Source: Pseudomonadota bacterium (GTDB lineage: Bacteria > Desulfobacterota > Syntrophorhabdia > Syntrophorhabdales > Syntrophorhabdaceae). From it: DNA of 32,211 nt. How positions within the stretch are numbered: position 1 is the stretch's first letter; each line of letters opens with the position of its first letter. This document shows, piece by piece, positions 13,339 to 28,179 of this stretch. Where the stretch lies: positions 1 through 32,211 of the forward strand of contig JAPLKB010000001.1 of the NCBI GenBank assembly GCA_026388275.1, written 5' to 3'. Position numbers and translations under genes: made by a program. The notes beneath the pieces are model-generated. The model made no database searches. It saw only the letters and a list, made by a program, of their open reading frames with translations, and had not been told where the DNA came from.

Positions 13339-14727
13339 ATGAACAGTCTTTTAAGAAGCATACCTAAAGTTGACGAAATCCTTAAACATGATGAATGGAA
13401 AAGGCTTGTAAAAATATATCCGGAAAGCGTTGCGAAAGATGCGTTGCGTTTCTGCCTCGATGATCTGAGGGCTTCTATAAAAGAAGGAAAAAGTAATGTG
13501 ATTCCCTCGATAGATCAAATAATTGAGGTTACTGAAAAACAGGTAAAAATTTCAATAAGTCCGAGGTTGAAAAGGGTTATAAACGGCACGGGTGTTATTA
13601 TCCATACCAATCTCGGCAGGTCATTACTCCCGAAATCTGCCATAGAAGCTGTCATAAATGCGGCGTCTCATTACACAAACCTTGAATTCGATCTCCGGAC
13701 AGGTTCCCGTGGTGACCGGTATGAACACTGTACATTTATCCTGCAAAAACTTACAGGCGCCGAAGGCGCCCTTGTTGTCAACAATAATGCAGGTGCGGTT
13801 TTTCTTATCCTTAATACATTTACAGAAGGGAAAGAGGTGGTTATTTCAAGAGGGGAACTTATTGAAATCGGCGGTTCCTTCAGGATACCTGATGTAATGA
13901 AGAAAAGCGGCGCCATCTTAAGAGAAGTAGGCTCGACAAACAGGACATTCATAAAAGATTACGAGTATGCAATAAGTGAGTCCACAGGTATGCTCATGAA
14001 AGCTCATACGAGTAATTACAAAATTAGAGGTTTTGTCCATGAGGCGACAGGTGAGGAATTAATATCGCTGAGCAAAAAACATAACCTGCCTGCATATTAT
14101 GATGCAGGGAGCGGAATGCTCTTTCCACTCAAAACGTTGGGAATGCATGATGAACCGTGCATAATCGAGGAACTTAAAAAAGGCTGGGATATAATATCTT
14201 TCAGCGGAGATAAACTGCTCGGTGCTCCACAGGCAGGAATTATACTCGGAGAAAAGTCTTACATAGATGCACTGAAGGCAAACCCGATCACAAGAATGCT
14301 GCGGCCCGATAAATTCACTCTTGCCGCCCTTGAAAGCACGCTCTTGCTATACCTCGATGAAGTTACGGCGCAGCATGAGATACCTACACTTAAAATGATA
14401 TTCGAAGATAAAGATGTTTTGAAAAGAAGGGTTCAACAACTTGTAAGGAAGATGAAAGGCTTGTCTGAAAAACTTTCTGTTGCATTAATAGATATATCCT
14501 CTGAAGTTGGGGGAGGAAGCCTTCCCGATGTATTTATACCCTCTTTTGGCATGGCAATAAAACCACTTACCATGAGTGTTGAAAAGTTTGAAGAAAGATT
14601 GAGAAACATTGACGTTCCCATTATCGGCAGAATCGAAAAGGACATGTTTCTTTTAAATATGAGAACAATTTTAAAAGAAGATGAACCACTTTTGCTTGAA
14701 GGCATTGAAAATGTCCTTCGGGTATAA
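13339..14727 (+). CDS. selA: L-seryl-tRNA(Sec) selenium transferase
   Basis: SelA is the PLP enzyme that converts seryl-tRNA(Sec) to selenocysteinyl-tRNA(Sec) using selenophosphate. The 462-residue protein has the normal length. An N-terminal helical tRNA-binding domain precedes RVINGTGVIIHTNLGRS (about 79-95), and the PLP lysine lies in SFSGDKLLGAPQAG (Lys292). The presence of this gene shows that the organism decodes UGA as selenocysteine. No selB, selD or selC tRNA is visible in this window. The start is an ATG with only a weak upstream AAGG. It is followed after 29 nt by an rluD-type gene, and the candidate selenocysteine cytochrome starts 1.2 kb downstream on the same strand. Confidence 0.95.
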   Translation: MNSLLRSIPKVDEILKHDEWKRLVKIYPESVAKDALRFCLDDLRASIKEGKSNVIPSIDQIIEVTEKQVKISISPRLKRVINGTGVIIHTNLGRSLLPKSAIEAVINAASHYTNLEFDLRTGSRGDRYEHCTFILQKLTGAEGALVVNNNAGAVFLILNTFTEGKEVVISRGELIEIGGSFRIPDVMKKSGAILREVGSTNRTFIKDYEYAISESTGMLMKAHTSNYKIRGFVHEATGEELISLSKKHNLPAYYDAGSGMLFPLKTLGMHDEPCIIEELKKGWDIISFSGDKLLGAPQAGIILGEKSYIDALKANPITRMLRPDKFTLAALESTLLLYLDEVTAQHEIPTLKMIFEDKDVLKRRVQQLVRKMKGLSEKLSVALIDISSEVGGGSLPDVFIPSFGMAIKPLTMSVEKFEERLRNIDVPIIGRIEKDMFLLNMRTILKEDEPLLLEGIENVLRV

Positions 14728-14756: not shown

Positions 14757-15752
14757 TTGACTAAAAATCAATTCCATTTCGTCTGTAAAGAAGAAGGCAA
14801 GAGGCTTGATGTATTCCTTTCTGAAAAGCTTTCCCTTACAAGAACAAAAATTAAAGATATTATAGAAGGCGGTTATGTCCGTATTGCCGGAAAAACACCA
14901 AAGCCTTCGATAAAGATAAAAAACCTCATGGAAATTGACGGTGAAATCCCCGAAGAAGAACCGTTAACCCTTACCCCACAGGCAATTCCTCTTGAAATTT
15001 TATACGAAGATAAATACTTTCTCGCAGTAAATAAGCCAAAGGATATGGTTGTACACCCTTCATTCGGGCATAAAGAAGGTACTTTAGTTAATGCTGTACT
15101 GGCATATCTTGGACAGGGAGAGGAGAGAAATCTCGAATCTCGAATCTCGAATCTCGAATTTGAAGATCAAGAAATAATACATCAAAGTGCTCAGAATTCA
15201 ATATGTTACAATCTCCAATCAAAAATCCCCCGTCCAGGTATTGTCCATAGGCTTGACAAAGGAACGACGGGTGTAATTATTGTTGCAAAGGACTCAAAGA
15301 CCCAGGAAATGCTCTCTGCACTTTTTAAAAAAAGAACTGTACGAAAAACATACAGGGCAATTGTTGAAGGTGTAATGGACTGCAAAGAAGGTGCAATAGA
15401 GGGAAATATCGGCAGGCATCCTATTGACAGGAAGAAAATGGCGGTGCTCAAGGAAGGCGGAAGAGATGCGGCTACGTCTTTTAAAGTAATAAAACAACTT
15501 GATGGTTTTGCATATGTTGAAGCATATCCGAAAACCGGCAGAACTCATCAGATACGGGTTCATCTCTCTCATATCGGCCATCCTGTTGCAGGGGATGAAA
15601 TGTACGGAAAGAAGGCGAAGCATATTGCCGACAGGCCGCTTCTCCATGCATATAAAATAGAGTTCATACATCCTGTCATGGGTACACCTATTATTATTGA
15701 AGCACCGATGCCGGATGATATGATAGGGTTTATAGAGAAATGTGATTTGTAG
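14757..15752 (+). CDS. rluD: RluA/RluD-family pseudouridine synthase with an odd insertion
   Basis: This enzyme isomerises specific uridines in RNA, and RluD itself modifies 23S rRNA helix 69. The 331-residue protein has an N-terminal S4-like RNA-binding domain (RLDVFLSEKLSLTRTKIKDII). The catalytic domain holds AVNKPKDMVVHP and GIVHRLDKGTTG, with catalytic Asp167, then GRTHQIRVHLSHIGHPVAGD. Residues about 121-157, between these blocks, are an unusual low-complexity insert encoded in part by four tandem copies of a 7-nt unit (15129-15156). I start it at TTG 14757; no strong ribosome site is visible, so the start is uncertain. The exact RNA target cannot be assigned. Confidence 0.85.
   Translation: MTKNQFHFVCKEEGKRLDVFLSEKLSLTRTKIKDIIEGGYVRIAGKTPKPSIKIKNLMEIDGEIPEEEPLTLTPQAIPLEILYEDKYFLAVNKPKDMVVHPSFGHKEGTLVNAVLAYLGQGEERNLESRISNLEFEDQEIIHQSAQNSICYNLQSKIPRPGIVHRLDKGTTGVIIVAKDSKTQEMLSALFKKRTVRKTYRAIVEGVMDCKEGAIEGNIGRHPIDRKKMAVLKEGGRDAATSFKVIKQLDGFAYVEAYPKTGRTHQIRVHLSHIGHPVAGDEMYGKKAKHIADRPLLHAYKIEFIHPVMGTPIIIEAPMPDDMIGFIEKCDL
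15129..15156 (+). repeat. Heptanucleotide tandem repeat (AATCTCG x4) inside rluD
   Basis: Four perfect copies of AATCTCG, plus a further AAT, lie inside the coding sequence. The unit length is not a multiple of three, so gain or loss of one copy would shift the frame before the catalytic motif. Confidence 0.9.
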
Positions 15753-15891: not shown

Positions 15892-17181
15892 ATGGAACAG
15901 AAGTCAGAAAATACCAACATACAAAAAAATAGGCTTTGTAAGAAAATGATAAGGGTTGCATGTTTCCTGTGTTTTTTTATTATATTTGCTGCTTTTAATG
16001 TCTCCGGGAATGAATCAAGTTGCGTGAGATGCCATACGGACGAAAAGATGCTGAAACCGCTTGTGGTTGTTCCGAAGATAAGCGAGGAAGCAGGAGGCGG
16101 GTGAGCAGGCGCTCCTCCGCCAGTTAGGCCGGAAACTTATTATAAGCGGTACTTGATAGATAAAACCATGTTGAGTAAGGACCCTCATTTTGGTGATGGC
16201 TGCAAGTCCTGTCATATGGGTAATGAAAATTCGAATGAAAAAGAAGGCGCACATAAAGATATAAGGAAAAAACCCTCTGCCAATCTCGAAGTGTGCGGAA
16301 AATGTCATACTGAAATTGCAGGTAACTATTCTAAATCACTTCACTATACTGTCCATGGATTTCAGCACAGCATATCCAGGAGATTTTCAAAGAAGGAGGA
16401 AACGGTTTTCAAAAACAAGGTTTTTGGTTCATCATGCAAAAGTTGCCATGCGTCATGCGGTGACTGTCATGTTCTCTCCCCATCTGTGGAAGGGATAAGC
16501 GCCGGTCTTATTGAAGGACACAAGTTTGTAAAAAAGGATGAGGCAAAGACCTGTGCCTTTTGTCATGGTGGAAGAGTTTATCCTGAATTTACCGGCGAAT
16601 ATGGCGGAGGTGTTGATGTTCATTACCAGAAGGGCATGACATGTATGGATTGCCATAAGAAAGAAGGACTGCATGGCGACGGAAATATGTATTTGACAAA
16701 GAATGAGACAAAAGCAAGGCCGAAGTGCAAAGATTGCCATAAAACAGGAGGTGAAGCAAAGGCAACTGTAAAACTGGCGCATTCAAAACATGAAGGTAAG
16801 GTGAGCTGCTACGGCTGTCATTCTCAGGGTGAATACAGAAATTGCTACAACTGCCATATGGGAAAAGGTTCAACTTCAAAACCAGGTTTTATGCTGGGCA
16901 AAGACCAGAGGCATGAGAAAACGCTTACAACCTTGAGATTAATACCTATTGTGAAAGATACTTTCTTGAAAGCGGGCATAAAGATGGAAGGTTTTGACAA
17001 TGTTGCCGATTATAAAGCAACACCTGTCCATAATATTAAGAAAAGGACAGAAAGAACACGATCCTGTGATGTATGTCATGTGGAAAAGAAGGATTTTCTT
17101 ACCAGAGAGATGCTTATAGAAAAAGGCTCAAAGGCAAACGAGAATTTGATATTTGATATGAAGGCTTTAAAAATTAAATAA
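15892..17181 (+). CDS. Multiheme c-type cytochrome, candidate selenoprotein (in-frame UGA at 16102-16104)
   Basis: The frame opens at 15892 and codes a signal peptide (hydrophobic about 20-38) and the first heme site, CVRCH (44-48). It then meets TGA at 16102-16104. The same frame continues without a stop to 17181 with ten more CXXCH sites (CKSCH, CGKCH, CKSCH, CGDCH, CAFCH, CMDCH, CKDCH, CYGCH, CYNCH, CDVCH). The downstream part alone has no signal peptide and no good ribosome site. The local sequence is EEAGGG-U-AGAPPPVRPE. Read with selenocysteine at residue 71, the product is 429 residues with 11 hemes, in the periplasm. A bulged hairpin 11 nt after the TGA and selA upstream support this. 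A TATAAT at 15880-15885 lies very close to the start, with no clear -35. The alternatives are a nonsense mutation or a sequencing error. Confidence 0.8.
16116..16133 (+). promoter_or_regulatory. Candidate bacterial SECIS hairpin
   Basis: Starting 11 nt after the UGA, TCCGCC (16116-16121) pairs with GGCCGGA (16127-16133) to form a 6-bp stem with one bulged C (16129) and the 5-nt loop AGTTA. Bacterial SECIS elements are short hairpins just downstream of UGA, and the minimal E. coli fdhF element is a 17-nt upper stem-loop about 11 nt away. The geometry fits, but no folding was run. Confidence 0.55.
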
Positions 17182-17192
17182 TGGAGGTACAG

Positions 17193-18059
17193 ATGAAGAA
17201 TGTATTAAAGAAGTGTTTCATGCTTGTTATTTTGATGTTGTTTTTTATCCCCCTTGCAGCTTTTTCTGCCAATGTGGAGCCTGTTGTCTCAACGGACTGG
17301 CTCGCGAATAATATTTCAAATCCTAAGGTGGTGATCATCGATATCAGGAAGGCTGAAGACTATAAGGAAAATCATATACAGAATTCGATAAACATAGTGG
17401 CCAAATCATGGATCACAAAGAAAAAAGACATATTGAATGAAATGATATCCGATGATGATCTCAAAGATCTTATCGGAGATGCCGGGATAAGGCAGGACTC
17501 GGTTGTTGTTATAGCTGGAACCGTTGCTGCGCCGATTGATTTGGTAAGCGCCGCAAGAGTTGCATGGACACTCATTTATGCCGGAGTCAAGGATGTTGCA
17601 ATTCTGAATGGTGGAGTTGAAAAATGGGAAAAAAAACCCAAGGCAAAACCATTTACACCAAAATTTGATAAGACTCTTCTTGTGAACAAAGATTATGTCA
17701 TGAAAAACCTTGACAAGGCTATTATTGTGGATGTGCGTCCCGCTGATTTTTACAGCGGTGATAAAAAGCAGACTTTTGTTGAAAGGGCAGGACACATAAA
17801 AAATGCAAAGAACCTTCCCTGGGGAACATTGCTGAATGAAGACAAGACTTACAAAAGCAAAGATGAGATTGAAAAGATAATGGCCCCCGTAATTGGGACG
17901 GATAAAACAAAAACAATTATTTTTTACTGTGATACTGGCATGTTTGCCACACCTGGCTGGTTTATGGCATACAGCCTCTCAGGATACGCCAATGCAAAGG
18001 TATACGACGGATCAGCTCAGGAATGGGCAGCAGACCCGAATGTGCCAATGGATAAATAA
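17193..18059 (+). CDS. Exported tandem-rhodanese protein, catalytic Cys in the C-terminal domain
   Basis: I start at ATG 17193, because GGAGG lies 5 nt upstream; an in-frame ATG at 17181 overlaps the previous stop codon. The product is 288 residues with a signal peptide (KNVLKKCFM then hydrophobic, ending AAFSA). Two rhodanese domains follow. The first has IIDIRKAEDYKENHI, but its active-site loop reads VVVIAGTVAAP with no cysteine. The second has IIVDVRPADFYSG and an intact loop, FYCDTGMFATPG (Cys246 in this numbering). Rhodaneses transfer sulfane sulfur, and some act on selenium compounds. Placement between the cytochrome and the membrane cytochrome b suggests a periplasmic role in that electron-transfer module. 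Confidence 0.85.
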   Translation: MKNVLKKCFMLVILMLFFIPLAAFSANVEPVVSTDWLANNISNPKVVIIDIRKAEDYKENHIQNSINIVAKSWITKKKDILNEMISDDDLKDLIGDAGIRQDSVVVIAGTVAAPIDLVSAARVAWTLIYAGVKDVAILNGGVEKWEKKPKAKPFTPKFDKTLLVNKDYVMKNLDKAIIVDVRPADFYSGDKKQTFVERAGHIKNAKNLPWGTLLNEDKTYKSKDEIEKIMAPVIGTDKTKTIIFYCDTGMFATPGWFMAYSLSGYANAKVYDGSAQEWAADPNVPMDK

Positions 18060-18118: not shown

Positions 18119-18850
18119 ATGACCTTCAAATGTTCGATACTTTTTGCGATCTCTATAATATTTATTTTTACATTTGTTGCCGTATCAGTAAAGGCCGATA
18201 ATCCAAGATACGCAGACCCTGAAGAAACCATGTCTTTAATTAAAAACAGCAAAGCCCTCACTGTCGATACGATGAGTTATATTGAGTGCATGGATCACAG
18301 AATACCCGGCTCAATTTGCATATCTCTTGAGGAGTTTGATAGGAATGCACCTTTGCTTTTGAAAAACAAAAAAAGGCCCATAGTTTTTTACTGTGAATCG
18401 AAAAATTGTGTAAGAGCAGGTGAGGTTTATAAAAAAGCCGTGACAATGGGTTATGAGGATATTTACATTCTCAAAGGCGGTTTGCCGGAGTGGAAAAGCG
18501 CAGGCTACGAGGTTGAAACAATGAACCGGGTCAGAAGAACGCCTGTAGTGTCCATAAAATTCAACCAGTTACAGAAGATGATGACAGAAAAAAAAGGCAT
18601 TCTGATACTTGATGTCCGTACGGAGTCTTTATTCAAAGAGGGACATATAGAGGGTGCATTAAATATACCTATGTATATGTTGCACAAGCAGTTCCATGCT
18701 ATCCCAGGAAACCGGCCGATTATTGTTGTTGATGAAAACGGGAAAAGATCCTTTATCGCCTCCTCTTTTCTGATTAGTAAAGGTTTTGGGAATGTACAAA
18801 GGCTTTTTAGCGGCATGGCTTACAAAGAAAAACAGGATAAAATCAGATGA
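18119..18850 (+). CDS. Exported tandem-rhodanese protein, catalytic Cys in the N-terminal domain
   Basis: This 243-residue protein begins with a signal peptide (MTFKCSILFA then hydrophobic, ending VKA about residue 26). The first rhodanese domain holds VDTMSYIECMDHRIPGS and the loop FYCESKNCVRAG, with Cys92 as the likely persulfide cysteine and Cys97 close by. The second domain has ILDVRTESLFKEGHIEGA, but its loop reads VVDENGKRSF, with Asp205 where the cysteine should be. It is therefore the mirror of the preceding gene. The stop overlaps the next ATG (ATGA), so translation is coupled to the membrane cytochrome. Confidence 0.85.
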   Translation: MTFKCSILFAISIIFIFTFVAVSVKADNPRYADPEETMSLIKNSKALTVDTMSYIECMDHRIPGSICISLEEFDRNAPLLLKNKKRPIVFYCESKNCVRAGEVYKKAVTMGYEDIYILKGGLPEWKSAGYEVETMNRVRRTPVVSIKFNQLQKMMTEKKGILILDVRTESLFKEGHIEGALNIPMYMLHKQFHAIPGNRPIIVVDENGKRSFIASSFLISKGFGNVQRLFSGMAYKEKQDKIR

Positions 18851-20712
18851 TCGTATTGACAGGAAAGGGTATTTTTTGGATTCTCCTTTCCTTTTTTTTA
18901 TTGCCGGGTTTCCTTAACGCACAATCATCCAATTTAAAAATGGACTGCACGGAATGCCATAACGACAGCAAATTCAATATTGGATTTAATAAATCAGTTC
19001 ATAATGAAAATGGATGCACAAGTTGCCACAGGCCTTTTCAAAGCATTGACAAGCATATTTCAAAAATTGAGAAACCTCTGCTTATTTCCTGTGGAAAGTG
19101 TCATAACGAGATTGAAAAAGAATACAGTAAAAATTTTCACTATCTCTACGAAGACTTCAAATGTCAGGATTGTCACTATGAAATTCATTCTCTGAAGAAG
19201 AAGCAGCAGAAAGATTCAAAGATTGCCATTGTAAAGAATTGCACCAAATGTCACGAAAATGAAGATTATGCCGCGTCAGACCACTCGGCAGCAGCCATGA
19301 AAGGTAATAAAGATTCGGCTGTGTGCAGCGATTGTCATGGACTTCATGATACAAGGGTTTATCATACATCTCTTGAAACAAATACTGCGGAAGCACGCGA
19401 GTTTTACAGTAGAAAATGCATTTCATGCCATTCGGACGCAGAGATGATGAAAAGAAATAAGCTGTCTCATAAGACAGTAGAATACTATGAGGAAACATAT
19501 CACGGCAAGGTACAGGACCTTGGCTACCCGACGCGTGTTGCCGGGTGCGCCGATTGCCATACCAATCATAACATACTGCCTCCTGATAACCCTGATTCGA
19601 CTATTAATCCTAAAAATCTTGTCAGAAACTGCGGAAAATGTCATAGCGGTTTTCATCAGAGATTTGCTGAGTTCAAAGCTCACCCTGACTACAAAAATAA
19701 AAACAGATATCCCTCGCTTTACTGGAGTTTTATATCCATGGTTTTTTTATTGCTTATTACCTTCAGTTTTTTCTGGATGCACACTCTCCTTTGGTGGAGG
19801 AAAGTATACTGGGAAAAATACAAGCTCGAAAAACTTGGCATAGTACCTGAATCACCGCTGCCTCATGAGGAGGCTGTTCAGGAGATAAAACGGTTTTCCG
19901 GAAAAGAAAGAATTATGCATATGCTGCTTATAATCTCATTTTTCGGTCTGGTTATTACCGGCTTCCCGCTGAAATATCACGGCACTCCCTGGGCAAAAGC
20001 ATTAATAAGTTTTATGGGAGGCGCGCATAAAGCAGGCTTATATCACAGGTTTGCTGCGGTTATCCTTATCGGACTCTTTTTATATACGATCTGGCGTGGT
20101 ATTAGCTTCATCTTTTCGAAGGGTTCCGGTAGGTCTGGATGGAGAGGCTGGATAGATAGACTTTTTGGACCAGATTCCCTTATGCCTAACAAAAATGATT
20201 GGCCTCAGTTCAAGGGCATGGTGAAATGGTTCTTTGGAAGAGGAGACATGCCGCAGTTCGGCAGGTGGACCTATTGGGAAAAATTCGACTTTCTTGCTGT
20301 TTTCTGGGGGATGTTTATTATAGGAGGTTCCGGTATAACCTTGTGGGCGCCGGAGGCGGCATCATATATTTATCCGGGCTGGGTATTAAATATAGCAAGT
20401 ATAGTCCATTCAGAAGAGGCTCTTCTTGCAGCTCTGTTTATTTTCACAGTCCACTTTTTCAATACACACCTCATTCCGACAAAATTCCCCATGGATCCTA
20501 TCATATTCACGGGCAGACAGAAACTTGAGGAATTAAGGAGATTCAGAAGCCTTGAATATGAAAGGCTGAAAAATGAAAACAGGCTCGATGAATTAAAGAT
20601 CGAACACCCTTGTATTTCAATGAAGATTTTCGCTTCCATGTTCGGGCTTGCAAGCCTGTGGCTGGGCATTATCTTTACCATTATTCTTCTGTGGACTTTC
20701 TTTTTCGCGTAA
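18847..20712 (+). CDS. CbcL-like fused nine-heme c / cytochrome b quinone oxidoreductase
   Basis: This 621-residue inner-membrane protein has a signal/anchor, then a periplasmic domain with nine CXXCH sites (CTECH at 34-38, CTSCH, CGKCH, CQDCH, CTKCH, CSDCH, CISCH, CADCH, CGKCH near 264). A membrane domain from about residue 295 has five to six helices. Candidate b-heme histidines lie in MHMLLIISFF, HKAGLYHRFAAV and HSEEALLAALFIFTVHFFNTH. Nine c-type hemes joined to a HydC/FdnI-type diheme b domain is the architecture of Geobacter CbcL, which oxidises menaquinol and passes electrons to periplasmic cytochromes. It is the last gene of the cytochrome-rhodanese operon and presumably its electron entry point. 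Confidence 0.9.
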   Translation: MIVLTGKGIFWILLSFFLLPGFLNAQSSNLKMDCTECHNDSKFNIGFNKSVHNENGCTSCHRPFQSIDKHISKIEKPLLISCGKCHNEIEKEYSKNFHYLYEDFKCQDCHYEIHSLKKKQQKDSKIAIVKNCTKCHENEDYAASDHSAAAMKGNKDSAVCSDCHGLHDTRVYHTSLETNTAEAREFYSRKCISCHSDAEMMKRNKLSHKTVEYYEETYHGKVQDLGYPTRVAGCADCHTNHNILPPDNPDSTINPKNLVRNCGKCHSGFHQRFAEFKAHPDYKNKNRYPSLYWSFISMVFLLLITFSFFWMHTLLWWRKVYWEKYKLEKLGIVPESPLPHEEAVQEIKRFSGKERIMHMLLIISFFGLVITGFPLKYHGTPWAKALISFMGGAHKAGLYHRFAAVILIGLFLYTIWRGISFIFSKGSGRSGWRGWIDRLFGPDSLMPNKNDWPQFKGMVKWFFGRGDMPQFGRWTYWEKFDFLAVFWGMFIIGGSGITLWAPEAASYIYPGWVLNIASIVHSEEALLAALFIFTVHFFNTHLIPTKFPMDPIIFTGRQKLEELRRFRSLEYERLKNENRLDELKIEHPCISMKIFASMFGLASLWLGIIFTIILLWTFFFA

Positions 20713-25482: not shown

Positions 25483-26661
25483 TCATGCGTTTTCGCAGGC
25501 TGTACCCTGGTTCCAGTATGGTGACATTGCCCTTAATCGTGCAATGATGGGCGGTAATTTCTCAATAACAAGGTCAATATCTTTATCAGTATTGTATATA
25601 CTCAAGCTGAATCTCACAGAACCGTGCGCCATTGTGTAGGGTACGCCCATGGCCCGTAATACATGTGAAGGCTGTAATGAGCCCGATGTACAGGCAGAGC
25701 CTGAAGATGCACAAATCCCGTATTCATCCATAAGCAGTAAAATGCTTTCTCCTTCAACAAACTCAAAACTGATATTTGTTGTATTTGGAAGGCGTGGCGC
25801 GCCTCCGCCGTTTACTTTGGAGTTAGGGATACGTTTCAGGATTTCATTTTCAAGCCTGTCTCTCAAACTGATGACTTTCGTGTTTTCATTTTGCAAATTT
25901 AATGCTGCAAGTTCGCATGCTTTCCCAAGGCCTATAATGCTGGGCGTGTTTTCTGTTCCTCCGCGGCGGCCCTTCTCCTGATGTCCTCCGATCATAAAGG
26001 GCAGAAATTTGGTCCCTCTCCGGAGATACAATATACCGATCCCTTTCTGCGCGTGTATTTTATGACCTGAGAAAGAAAGCATGGAGATGGCTGTTTCTTT
26101 AATATTTATCGGTATTTTTCCCACAGCCTGAACAGCGTCTGTGTGGAATAGAATATCTTTTTCATGAGCAAGGGCTGCTGCTTTTTCAACAGGAAAGATA
26201 ACACCAGTTTCGTTATTGGCCCACATAAGGCTTACCACGGCAGTATCAGTAGAGAGGCTCTTTTCATATTGTTCCATATCAAGGTTGCCTTTGCTGTCTA
26301 CATCAAGCATGGTAACACGGTAGCCCTTTTCCTGGAGGTGCTCGCATAGAGATTTTACAGCAGGGTGTTCTACACGGCTTGTGATAATATGACGCTTGTC
26401 AGGGTTAACGGCCAGAGCTGAGAGAATGGCTGTATTGTCGCTTTCAGTGCCGCAACTTGTAAATATAATCTCATCAGGGGAGGCGTTAATTAAATCTGCA
26501 ATCTTCTGCCGTGCATCATTGAGTTTCTTTGCTACCTGTCCGCCAAAACTGTGCATGCTGGAAGGATTTCCATAAAGATCGCTGAAATAGGGAAGCATCT
26601 CTTCCAGCACTTCAGGAGCGACGCGTGTTGTTGCGTTGTTGTCGAGATAAGTTGCTTTCAT
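25483..26661 (-). CDS. nifS: Cysteine desulfurase NifS
   Basis: This PLP enzyme removes sulfur from cysteine as a persulfide for Fe-S cluster assembly. The 392-residue protein has YLDNNATTR at the N-terminus, RVEHPAVKS, the PLP lysine in SFSGHKIHAQKG (Lys201), and the persulfide cysteine in CASSGSACTSGS (Cys324). The long loop with a CTSGS ending marks the group that includes NifS and IscS. Its ATG overlaps the nifU stop by 4 nt (ATGA). It could also feed selenium to selenophosphate synthesis, since these enzymes can act on selenocysteine, but the context does not decide this. Confidence 0.93.
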   Translation of the reverse strand: MKATYLDNNATTRVAPEVLEEMLPYFSDLYGNPSSMHSFGGQVAKKLNDARQKIADLINASPDEIIFTSCGTESDNTAILSALAVNPDKRHIITSRVEHPAVKSLCEHLQEKGYRVTMLDVDSKGNLDMEQYEKSLSTDTAVVSLMWANNETGVIFPVEKAAALAHEKDILFHTDAVQAVGKIPINIKETAISMLSFSGHKIHAQKGIGILYLRRGTKFLPFMIGGHQEKGRRGGTENTPSIIGLGKACELAALNLQNENTKVISLRDRLENEILKRIPNSKVNGGGAPRLPNTTNISFEFVEGESILLLMDEYGICASSGSACTSGSLQPSHVLRAMGVPYTMAHGSVRFSLSIYNTDKDIDLVIEKLPPIIARLRAMSPYWNQGTACENA

Positions 26662-27494
26662 TGTGGCACCTCCTCAACAACCAGTTCAGGGGAAATGAGT
26701 TCGCGCAATTTTGATTCCACAAAGCCTTTCAGGGTTTGCTGCGATGCAGGGCATACCGCACAGGCACCGCGGGTTGCAACAATTACCCTGTTGCCTATAA
26801 TATCGACAAGATCAATATCTCCTCCGTCATGTTTGAGGGAAGGCCGTATCTCCCGTTCTATTGTCTCTTCAATAAGTCTGATTTTTTGAATATTAGTTAA
26901 TTTTGGCCGTTCCTTTGGTTCCGGTTCGGTAGCAGGCTGGGAGTATATAGTATCAATAATCTTCTGAATCTTATCATGACACTTCTTGCACCCGCCGCCT
27001 GCTTTTGTGTAATTTGTGATTTCTTCAATGGTGGTGAGATGATTCTCTGTTACCGCCTTCTCAATTTCTTTATCGGTTATGCCGAAGCATTCACAGATAA
27101 CCTCACCTTCCTTGACTGTAGAAGGCACCCCTCTATAATATTCGATAGCTTTTTCGAGAGCTTCCTGACCCAGCACAGAACAGTGCATCTTCTCCGGAGG
27201 CAGTCCACCCAGACTGTCTGCTATGTCCTGGTTGGTAATTTTCATAGCTTCTTCAATGGTCATTCCCTTTATCAGCTCGGTCAATGCAGATGCCGACGCG
27301 ATGGCGCTTGCGCAACCGAAGGTTTTAAATTTGGCTTCTTTTATCCGTTTGTTTTCGTCGAGCTTGAAGGTCAGCTTCAGGGCGTCGCCACAGGCAATGG
27401 AACCGATTTCTGCCACGCCGTCGGGATTTTCTATCTCACCCACATTTTTCGGATTTAAAAAGTGTTCTTTTACTTTATCAGTGTATTCCCACAT
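26658..27494 (-). CDS. nifU: Fe-S cluster scaffold protein NifU
   Basis: I start at ATG 27494, since AGGAGGAA lies 7-8 nt upstream; a longer frame begins at 27518. The 278-residue product has three domains. An IscU-like N-terminal scaffold has cysteines in SIACGDALK, FGCASAIASA and MHCSVLGQ. A central BFD-type [2Fe-2S] domain has CECFG and GGGCKKCHDKI. The C-terminal Nfu domain has the CAVCPAS cluster site. This is the full NifU architecture. No nitrogenase genes are in the window, so the pair may serve general cluster assembly, as in several anaerobes that lack Isc. Confidence 0.92.
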   Translation of the reverse strand: MWEYTDKVKEHFLNPKNVGEIENPDGVAEIGSIACGDALKLTFKLDENKRIKEAKFKTFGCASAIASASALTELIKGMTIEEAMKITNQDIADSLGGLPPEKMHCSVLGQEALEKAIEYYRGVPSTVKEGEVICECFGITDKEIEKAVTENHLTTIEEITNYTKAGGGCKKCHDKIQKIIDTIYSQPATEPEPKERPKLTNIQKIRLIEETIEREIRPSLKHDGGDIDLVDIIGNRVIVATRGACAVCPASQQTLKGFVESKLRELISPELVVEEVPQ

Positions 27495-28179
27495 AAAAAA
27501 TTCCTCCTGTTTTTGCAATTAAAAAATCATACTTTATGCAACATCAATTCAATCCGAATGATTCCCCACAGCTTGCTGCGGGTTAACAACTTCCCCTCGC
27601 CCCAACGGGGGAGAGGGTGGGTGAGGGGGATAGGGTTCTCATCCCGCTGATACACCGCTGCTTGCGGCAAGGAGCTTCATTGTATCCCGGATATCCATAT
27701 TTTAATTATAAAAATGCTAAACCCTGCAACTCCGGCAAAGCCGGGGATTTACCTATTTGGTTAATATATGGTTCATATGCTAATAATTCAAGTGTTTTCA
27801 TGGATGGTAAAAAAAGATTGTCCAAAAATTTTCCTACCTCAATAAGGTTTACCAGCAGCAAAGAAATACATATTATAAATTCTAATTAACATCAGTTCAT
27901 TTCACTCTTATAGTGATGTTACAATTTGTTACAAACTTTTACTTTTAAGACAAACATTCTTAAAAGAAAAATGATATTTATTCTGTATTACAGGGATAAC
28001 GGTTGGTCGTATCGATACTTTACGGTATAGACCTTGTAACATCCTCCGTTGAAGGGATATGCAGAACACAGAACGATATTGTCAAAAGTTGAATGGAAAA
28101 TTGATAAGAAGGTTGAGTAAAGATATGCCTTACAAGTCATAATAAGGGGGAGGGGAAAAGGGAGAGGGGGCAATAATTG
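27495..28179. other. Repeat-rich intergenic region upstream of nifU
   Basis: No credible gene is present in this gap of about 685 nt. It holds a GC hairpin at 27573-27592 (CCCACAGC/GCTGCGGG, one mismatch) and a C-rich/G-rich block at 27591-27630. It also holds a CCGGC-AAA-GCCGG hairpin (27732-27744) and a perfect CTTTTAAG/CTTAAAAG inverted repeat (27942-27966). The purine-rich block at 28144-28170 resembles bases 10-34 of the window. These look like dispersed intergenic repeats common in bacteria. Confidence 0.5.

Follow-up and report, generated by a model that had tools for sequence, protein, structure and literature searches.

The gene at positions 15892-17181 of the window, by which we mean the whole 32,211-nucleotide stretch of DNA that was analysed, almost certainly carries a selenocysteine (Sec) codon. 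Its predicted product is an exported, multiheme protein with Sec in a fixed motif, a rhodanese as partner and quinone-linked neighbours. When homologs are compared, the Sec would sit between hemes 1 and 2 in a loop of the form G-x-G-U, and the core that follows resembles the octaheme tetrathionate reductases. The best explanation overall, to which a probability of about 0.55 can be assigned, is that of a periplasmic selenocytochrome which, jointly with the rhodanese, would reduce (or oxidise) the sulfane sulfur of, for instance, thiosulfate or polysulfide. The gene represents a selenoprotein family that is widespread and belongs to the very small number of selenocytochromes. Since a periplasmic rhodanese accompanies it almost without exception, a molybdenum-free sulfur respiration is suggested for syntrophs and spirochetes, organisms whose electron acceptors are poorly known.

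Table 1. Features discussed in the text (positions are those of the window unless a locus is named)
Feature	Position	Strand	Remarks
selA, L-seryl-tRNA(Sec) selenium transferase	13339..14727	+	TIGR00474, 583 bits; adjacency not conserved
Predicted eleven-heme c-type selenocytochrome gene	15892..17181	+	read through TGA, 429 aa, TAA stop
Probable selenocysteine codon, in-frame TGA	16102..16104	+	residue 71, motif GGGUAGAPP; aligned TGA in 48/50 and 75/80 homologs
SECIS-like hairpin	16105..16133	+	stem 16116-16121 / 16128-16133; loop 16122-16127; invariant GU 16123-16124
Secreted tandem rhodanese, family F1, conserved partner gene	17181..18059	+	catalytic-type Cys250 kept in 46/47 relatives
Second secreted rhodanese, family F4	18119..18850	+
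Multiheme c-type cytochrome (9 CxxCH) fused to membrane domain, family F5	18847..20712	+	resembles formate dehydrogenase gamma / cytochrome b561
Octaheme tetrathionate reductase homologs with Sec/Cys at column 64	L149-L154; L154:1501-2868

A conserved in-frame UGA in a multiheme cytochrome gene

The window belongs to a 3.5 Mb genome that is 99.5% complete. The first-pass annotation had proposed that a single TGA divides a signal peptide and a first heme site from ten further heme sites in the same frame, and that the downstream part has no signal peptide of its own. Both proposals are borne out: the gene is one frame with a sole internal TGA, a hydrophobic export segment occupies residues ~19-38, one of the eleven CxxCH motifs (C44-H48) lies upstream of the TGA and ten lie downstream, and the open reading frame that follows the TGA, 342 aa long from a TTG start at 16153, lacks a signal peptide. 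When all TGA triplets of the window were checked, the one at 16102 was the only instance that joins two comparably long open segments. A standard gene caller would start after the UGA, so that signal peptide, heme 1 and selenocysteine would all be missing from its product.

Homologs were gathered in two sets. A search of 395 genomes of the phylum returned relatives at E < 1e-40 in ~45 genomes, nearly all of them with exactly one in-frame TGA. In 48 of the 50 homologs taken from sampled whole genomes this TGA falls into one and the same alignment column. Scanning 84,980 species genomes added 80 named loci, spanning Desulfobacterota, Spirochaetota and Armatimonadota, and 75 of these have the TGA at the aligned site, within the motif G-x-G-U-[AG]-[AG]. 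Homologs with the conserved TGA range from ~31% to 80% identity, the latter value being that of a genome of the same genus (G201), whose TGA stands at the same aligned position. Because the same single TGA recurs at the same place in both sets, it is not a chance occurrence.

It had been suggested that homologs with either Cys or UGA aligned at residue 71 would speak for Sec, and those with neither against it. UGA is indeed what is found, while a Cys form is present at none of the ~130 loci examined, so that selenium seems to be required rather than merely better. A few homologs with neither do exist, namely with Ala (L084 and L121, the latter identical to L011), Val (L053, L079), Tyr (L041) or a deletion (L115). 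On a tree from which the Sec-site columns were excluded, however, the named TGA-less loci are nested and represent two derived losses, one in the clade sister to the window protein and the other in L084, whose sister L060 retains the TGA. The genomes of L121 and L115 (UBA5329 and SKW285) also carry a copy with the TGA (L081 and L082). Judged from these alignments, the family is one with Sec or, in rare losses, with Ala, Val, Tyr or a deletion at this site.

A SECIS-like hairpin downstream of the UGA

The bSECIS model describes a hairpin shortly after the UGA with a G (and a U) in its apical loop, and such a structure is found in the window gene. It starts 12 nt past the TGA and consists of a six-pair stem and a six-base loop, the latter beginning 17 nt past the UGA. 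Across 71 sequences of the window's subgroup, pairing in the stem amounts to 93%, against at most 65% with one side slid, and the loop contains two bases that never vary, G22 and U23 (71/71). At pair 18-29, GC is replaced by AT in L082 and by TA in L054. Constraint is also visible at synonymous sites: of the gene's 62 conserved four-fold codon columns, the third base varies least in two that both lie in the stem (Ala+9, GCG in 66/66; Pro+4, CCT in 66/69), the median entropy of all 62 columns being 1.74 bits.

A related hairpin occurs at the same distance in the distant subgroup, with 13 cells showing double changes and a covariation score of 0.404 versus 0.144 when shuffled (0/500). In the window's own subgroup (22 sequences), 35 of 500 shuffles reach the covariation score, a weak signal that is due to the stem hardly varying. 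The minimum-energy fold of the window sequence alone favours a competing hairpin across the UGA (16096-16121), and the 76 nt have a z-score of only -0.67; single-sequence folding is therefore not counted as evidence. Rfam gave no match anywhere in the window.

Selenocysteine machinery and genetic code

The genes selA, selB, selC (tRNA-Sec) and selD are all present in the genome, with SelB at 365.6 bits (over the cut-off) and tRNA-Sec at 72.2 bits, and SelD carries an in-frame TGA itself. TGA serves as the stop codon of 5 of the 19 window genes, among them the gene for the second rhodanese in the cluster, and hence has not been reassigned. The presence of selA 1.2 kb upstream on the same strand, to which the first-pass annotation had drawn attention, is confirmed, but this neighbour is not conserved in relatives; as its adjacency recurs in just one of the 80 loci and alone proves nothing about Sec, it was dropped as evidence. 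Co-occurrence of the gene with SelB and tRNA-Sec across the phylum was likewise rejected, since both are near-universal there and thus uninformative: SelB exceeds the cut-off in 61 of 67 sampled genomes, including some without the selenocytochrome gene. Among the 17 genomes of the Spirochaetota, Armatimonadota and Desulfonema loci, 16 have SelB at E < 1e-60, five of them over the curated cut-off. In four Spirochaetota loci, L100, L116, L118 and L124 (12.5-19.8 kb), selB lies ~1.4-8 kb downstream of the cytochrome, accompanied in L116 by selA, an arrangement that might reflect joint transfer.

Taken together, a TGA shared by three phyla, a covarying hairpin at a fixed distance, near-fixed synonymous sites and a complete machinery support the Sec reading, and leave hardly any doubt that the UGA at residue 71 stands for selenocysteine. 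On this comparative evidence, the codon would be decoded by SelB and tRNA-Sec, directed by the hairpin just downstream.

Rhodanese and electron-transfer neighbours

The tandem rhodanese of family F1 is probably the partner of the selenocytochrome. In the window its gene comes immediately after that of the cytochrome, and a secreted rhodanese gene holds this downstream position in nearly all relatives. F1 lies no more than 400 bases from the cytochrome in 58 of the 72 Sec loci with sequence enough to judge, the other 14 having no F1 rhodanese within this distance, and is found in 0 of 5 Sec-less named loci. In the genome-search set it accompanies every Sec locus of the window's subgroup for which downstream sequence is available, and in the distant subgroup all ten of the downstream genes tested are rhodaneses. 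Furthermore, locus L041 (255-2405, reverse strand) encodes a natural fusion of 717 residues between the eleven-heme cytochrome and a tandem rhodanese, in which the Sec site is Tyr; thus, coupling to the rhodanese does not require Sec. In both of the named losses Sec and F1 disappeared together, although two events do not suffice for a test, and L041 lost its Sec though fused to the rhodanese. In L002, which comes from the same-genus genome G201, the F1 match is split over two open segments with scores of 278 and 128, because of a misassembly or because the gene is broken.

As for electron supply, the F5 protein is likely the quinone link, and it recurs in relatives together with the second rhodanese (F4). 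Other relatives, such as L108, have NrfD and TtrB/NrfC-like Fe-S genes directly upstream of the selenocytochrome. In these relatives (L096, L102, L104, L108, L114 and L128) a triheme c7 domain at the N-terminus appears to share the reading frame of the selenocytochrome, to which this triheme c7 ORF (F10), ending at the Sec codon, appears to be fused. Genes for cytochrome c assembly (ResB, CcsB) are often found nearby.

Elsewhere in the window, a nifS-type cysteine desulfurase gene stands beside NifU (25483-27518, reverse strand), both being ordinary genes of Fe-S or sulfur mobilisation, and a short tandem repeat, aatctcg, is located at 15130-15160 within an RluA-like pseudouridine synthase gene.

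Proposed function and alternatives

In the proposed mechanism, the rhodanese would accept, as a cysteine persulfide, the sulfane sulfur of a compound such as thiosulfate or polysulfide; Sec71 would then attack the persulfide, and the sulfane sulfur would be taken over or reduced. Electrons from the quinone pool would reach the heme chain via the cytochrome b or the NrfD/Fe-S partner, and sulfide would be released as the product. The net role would be that of a molybdenum-free sulfane-sulfur reductase, possibly reversed as a sulfide oxidase. A parallel is offered by Dethiobacter alkaliphilus, for which one report describes thiosulfate reduction without molybdo- or Dsr enzymes and the upregulation on thiosulfate of one rhodanese-clustered Otr/SirA-like multiheme cytochrome (PMC10376724). 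A search for dsrA in the window genome gave no match. The profile and structural matches of the core to octaheme tetrathionate reductase also favour a link to sulfur. On the other side, the Sec does not align with the Cys/Sec position conserved in that enzyme. Sulfane sulfur as the substrate class, together with the chemistry outlined above, is best kept as a tentative proposal with slightly less than even odds. Still less probable is the assignment to an undescribed respiratory enzyme class, a selenocysteine-heme thiosulfate/polysulfide reductase without molybdenum or siroheme, in which the secreted rhodanese would pass its persulfide on to a selenol attached to a wire of eleven hemes. Such a class would extend over Desulfobacterota, Spirochaetota and Armatimonadota, in places with selA/selB of its own close by.

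The compounds that multiheme cytochromes are able to reduce are numerous, with selenite, tellurite and Fe(III) among them. The main rival, drawn by analogy with the ext cluster of Geobacter, is a selenocytochrome for the reduction of selenite/tellurite or metals whose rhodanese would bind selenium instead of sulfur, and it is unlikely, though far from negligible. The same parts are at hand, i.e., a rhodanese, a multiheme cytochrome with Sec and a quinone-linked cytochrome b, and members of the family give weak matches to the ExtM, ExtN and ExtO profiles; yet there is no homology to ExtKL over the Sec site, and the core resembles tetrathionate reductase. An extI mutant is defective in selenite/tellurite reduction (PMC5877670), but no ExtI-like porin occurs among the annotated genes of the window or the annotated recurring neighbour families.

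A purely electron-transferring cytochrome, with Sec acting as a heme ligand or as a guard against oxidants or free sulfide and not in catalysis, is rather improbable. The many hemes and the Gly/Pro-rich Sec loop would suit such a protein, and the absence of a Cys replacement could fit a ligand role tuned to selenium, but a rhodanese that is conserved next door or even fused speaks against this reading, and where Sec has been lost, the loop motif has mostly decayed as well, with no swap to His, Met or Cys in most cases. Finally, there is next to no chance that the gene does not encode a selenoprotein, being instead a pseudogene, a sequencing error, a split gene or a case of TGA reassigned to another amino acid, since, although standard-code annotation would give two ORFs, the TGA and its flanks are conserved over three phyla down to ~31% identity, the hairpin is under constraint, TGA ends other genes of the window and the downstream half has no signal peptide.

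Relation to known families and systems

No NCBIfam model reaches its cut-off for the selenocytochrome, Pfam finds only short generic heme domains in it, and no NCBIfam or Pfam family matches the present family over its whole length. At the structural level, Foldseek returned no match below E 0.001, and the best structural match of the predicted model (mean pLDDT 79.7) is 1sp3, an octaheme tetrathionate reductase, with a middling Z of 7.9. Residues 126-316 align with hemes 1-7 of octaheme tetrathionate reductase TIGR04315 (hhalign prob 97.6, E 3.4e-12), and by this profile alignment the core of the predicted selenocytochrome is a distant relative of that enzyme. Membership in the octaheme family was rejected: the window protein has eleven hemes, not eight, falls short of the TIGR04315 cut-off of 375 bits and gives no match at 1e-3, and its own genome contains none at 1e-30.

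Many TIGR04315 homologs from Desulfobacterota carry a TGA in frame at the column of an invariant Cys (column 64), thus forming Sec/Cys pairs, and the octaheme family is listed among the GenBank-annotated selenoprotein families (PMC13188914). This Cys/Sec sits 10 residues before heme 2 of the octaheme family, and neither Cys nor Sec is present at the aligned place in the window protein. As the two Sec positions differ, the Sec of the window protein would belong to an extension at the N-terminus that holds two hemes and is not part of the octaheme-like core.

In the main texts of the literature searched, the only Sec cytochrome described with a rhodanese is ExtKL. An inventory from 2026, which covers 119 families and subfamilies of prokaryotic selenoproteins, includes in its main text ExtKL, the octaheme family and a barrel protein of the GSU2204 type, but no entry there fits the eleven-heme selenocytochrome (PMC13188914). 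Selenocytochromes as a kind (ExtKL, octahemes with Sec) are already known, and the comparison points to an undescribed eleven-heme family with an enzyme function that is possibly new.

ExtKL has been described as a rare selenoprotein without non-Sec homologs (PMC1914089), and the ext cluster of Geobacter contains the rhodanese ExtH and a cytochrome b alongside it (PMC5877670). Like the window protein, it is a multiheme c-type cytochrome with one Sec. However, ExtKL has 5 hemes versus 11, and its Sec is found in a C-terminal IPDGUPTPNR after heme 5, whereas that of the window protein is in GxGU between hemes 1 and 2. Membership in this family (NF040886, cut-off 250 bits) was rejected, the window locus being unmatched even at E 10; the ExtKL profile matched none of the members of set A1, and in a profile-profile comparison its match to the window family is confined to one 45-column heme segment.

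The Otr/SirA-like multihemes of Dethiobacter alkaliphilus adjoin rhodanese genes, as in the window, but they are octahemes for which the passages concerned note no Sec (PMC10376724), whereas the window protein combines eleven hemes with a predicted Sec. Lastly, the NrfD and TtrB/NrfC-like Fe-S genes upstream of the selenocytochrome in relatives such as L108 are comparable to the NrfD/Fe-S membrane modules of polysulfide reductase (PsrBC) and related systems. In contrast to polysulfide reductase, no molybdopterin catalytic subunit is seen beside the selenocytochrome, and the partner in the window is of the cytochrome b type.
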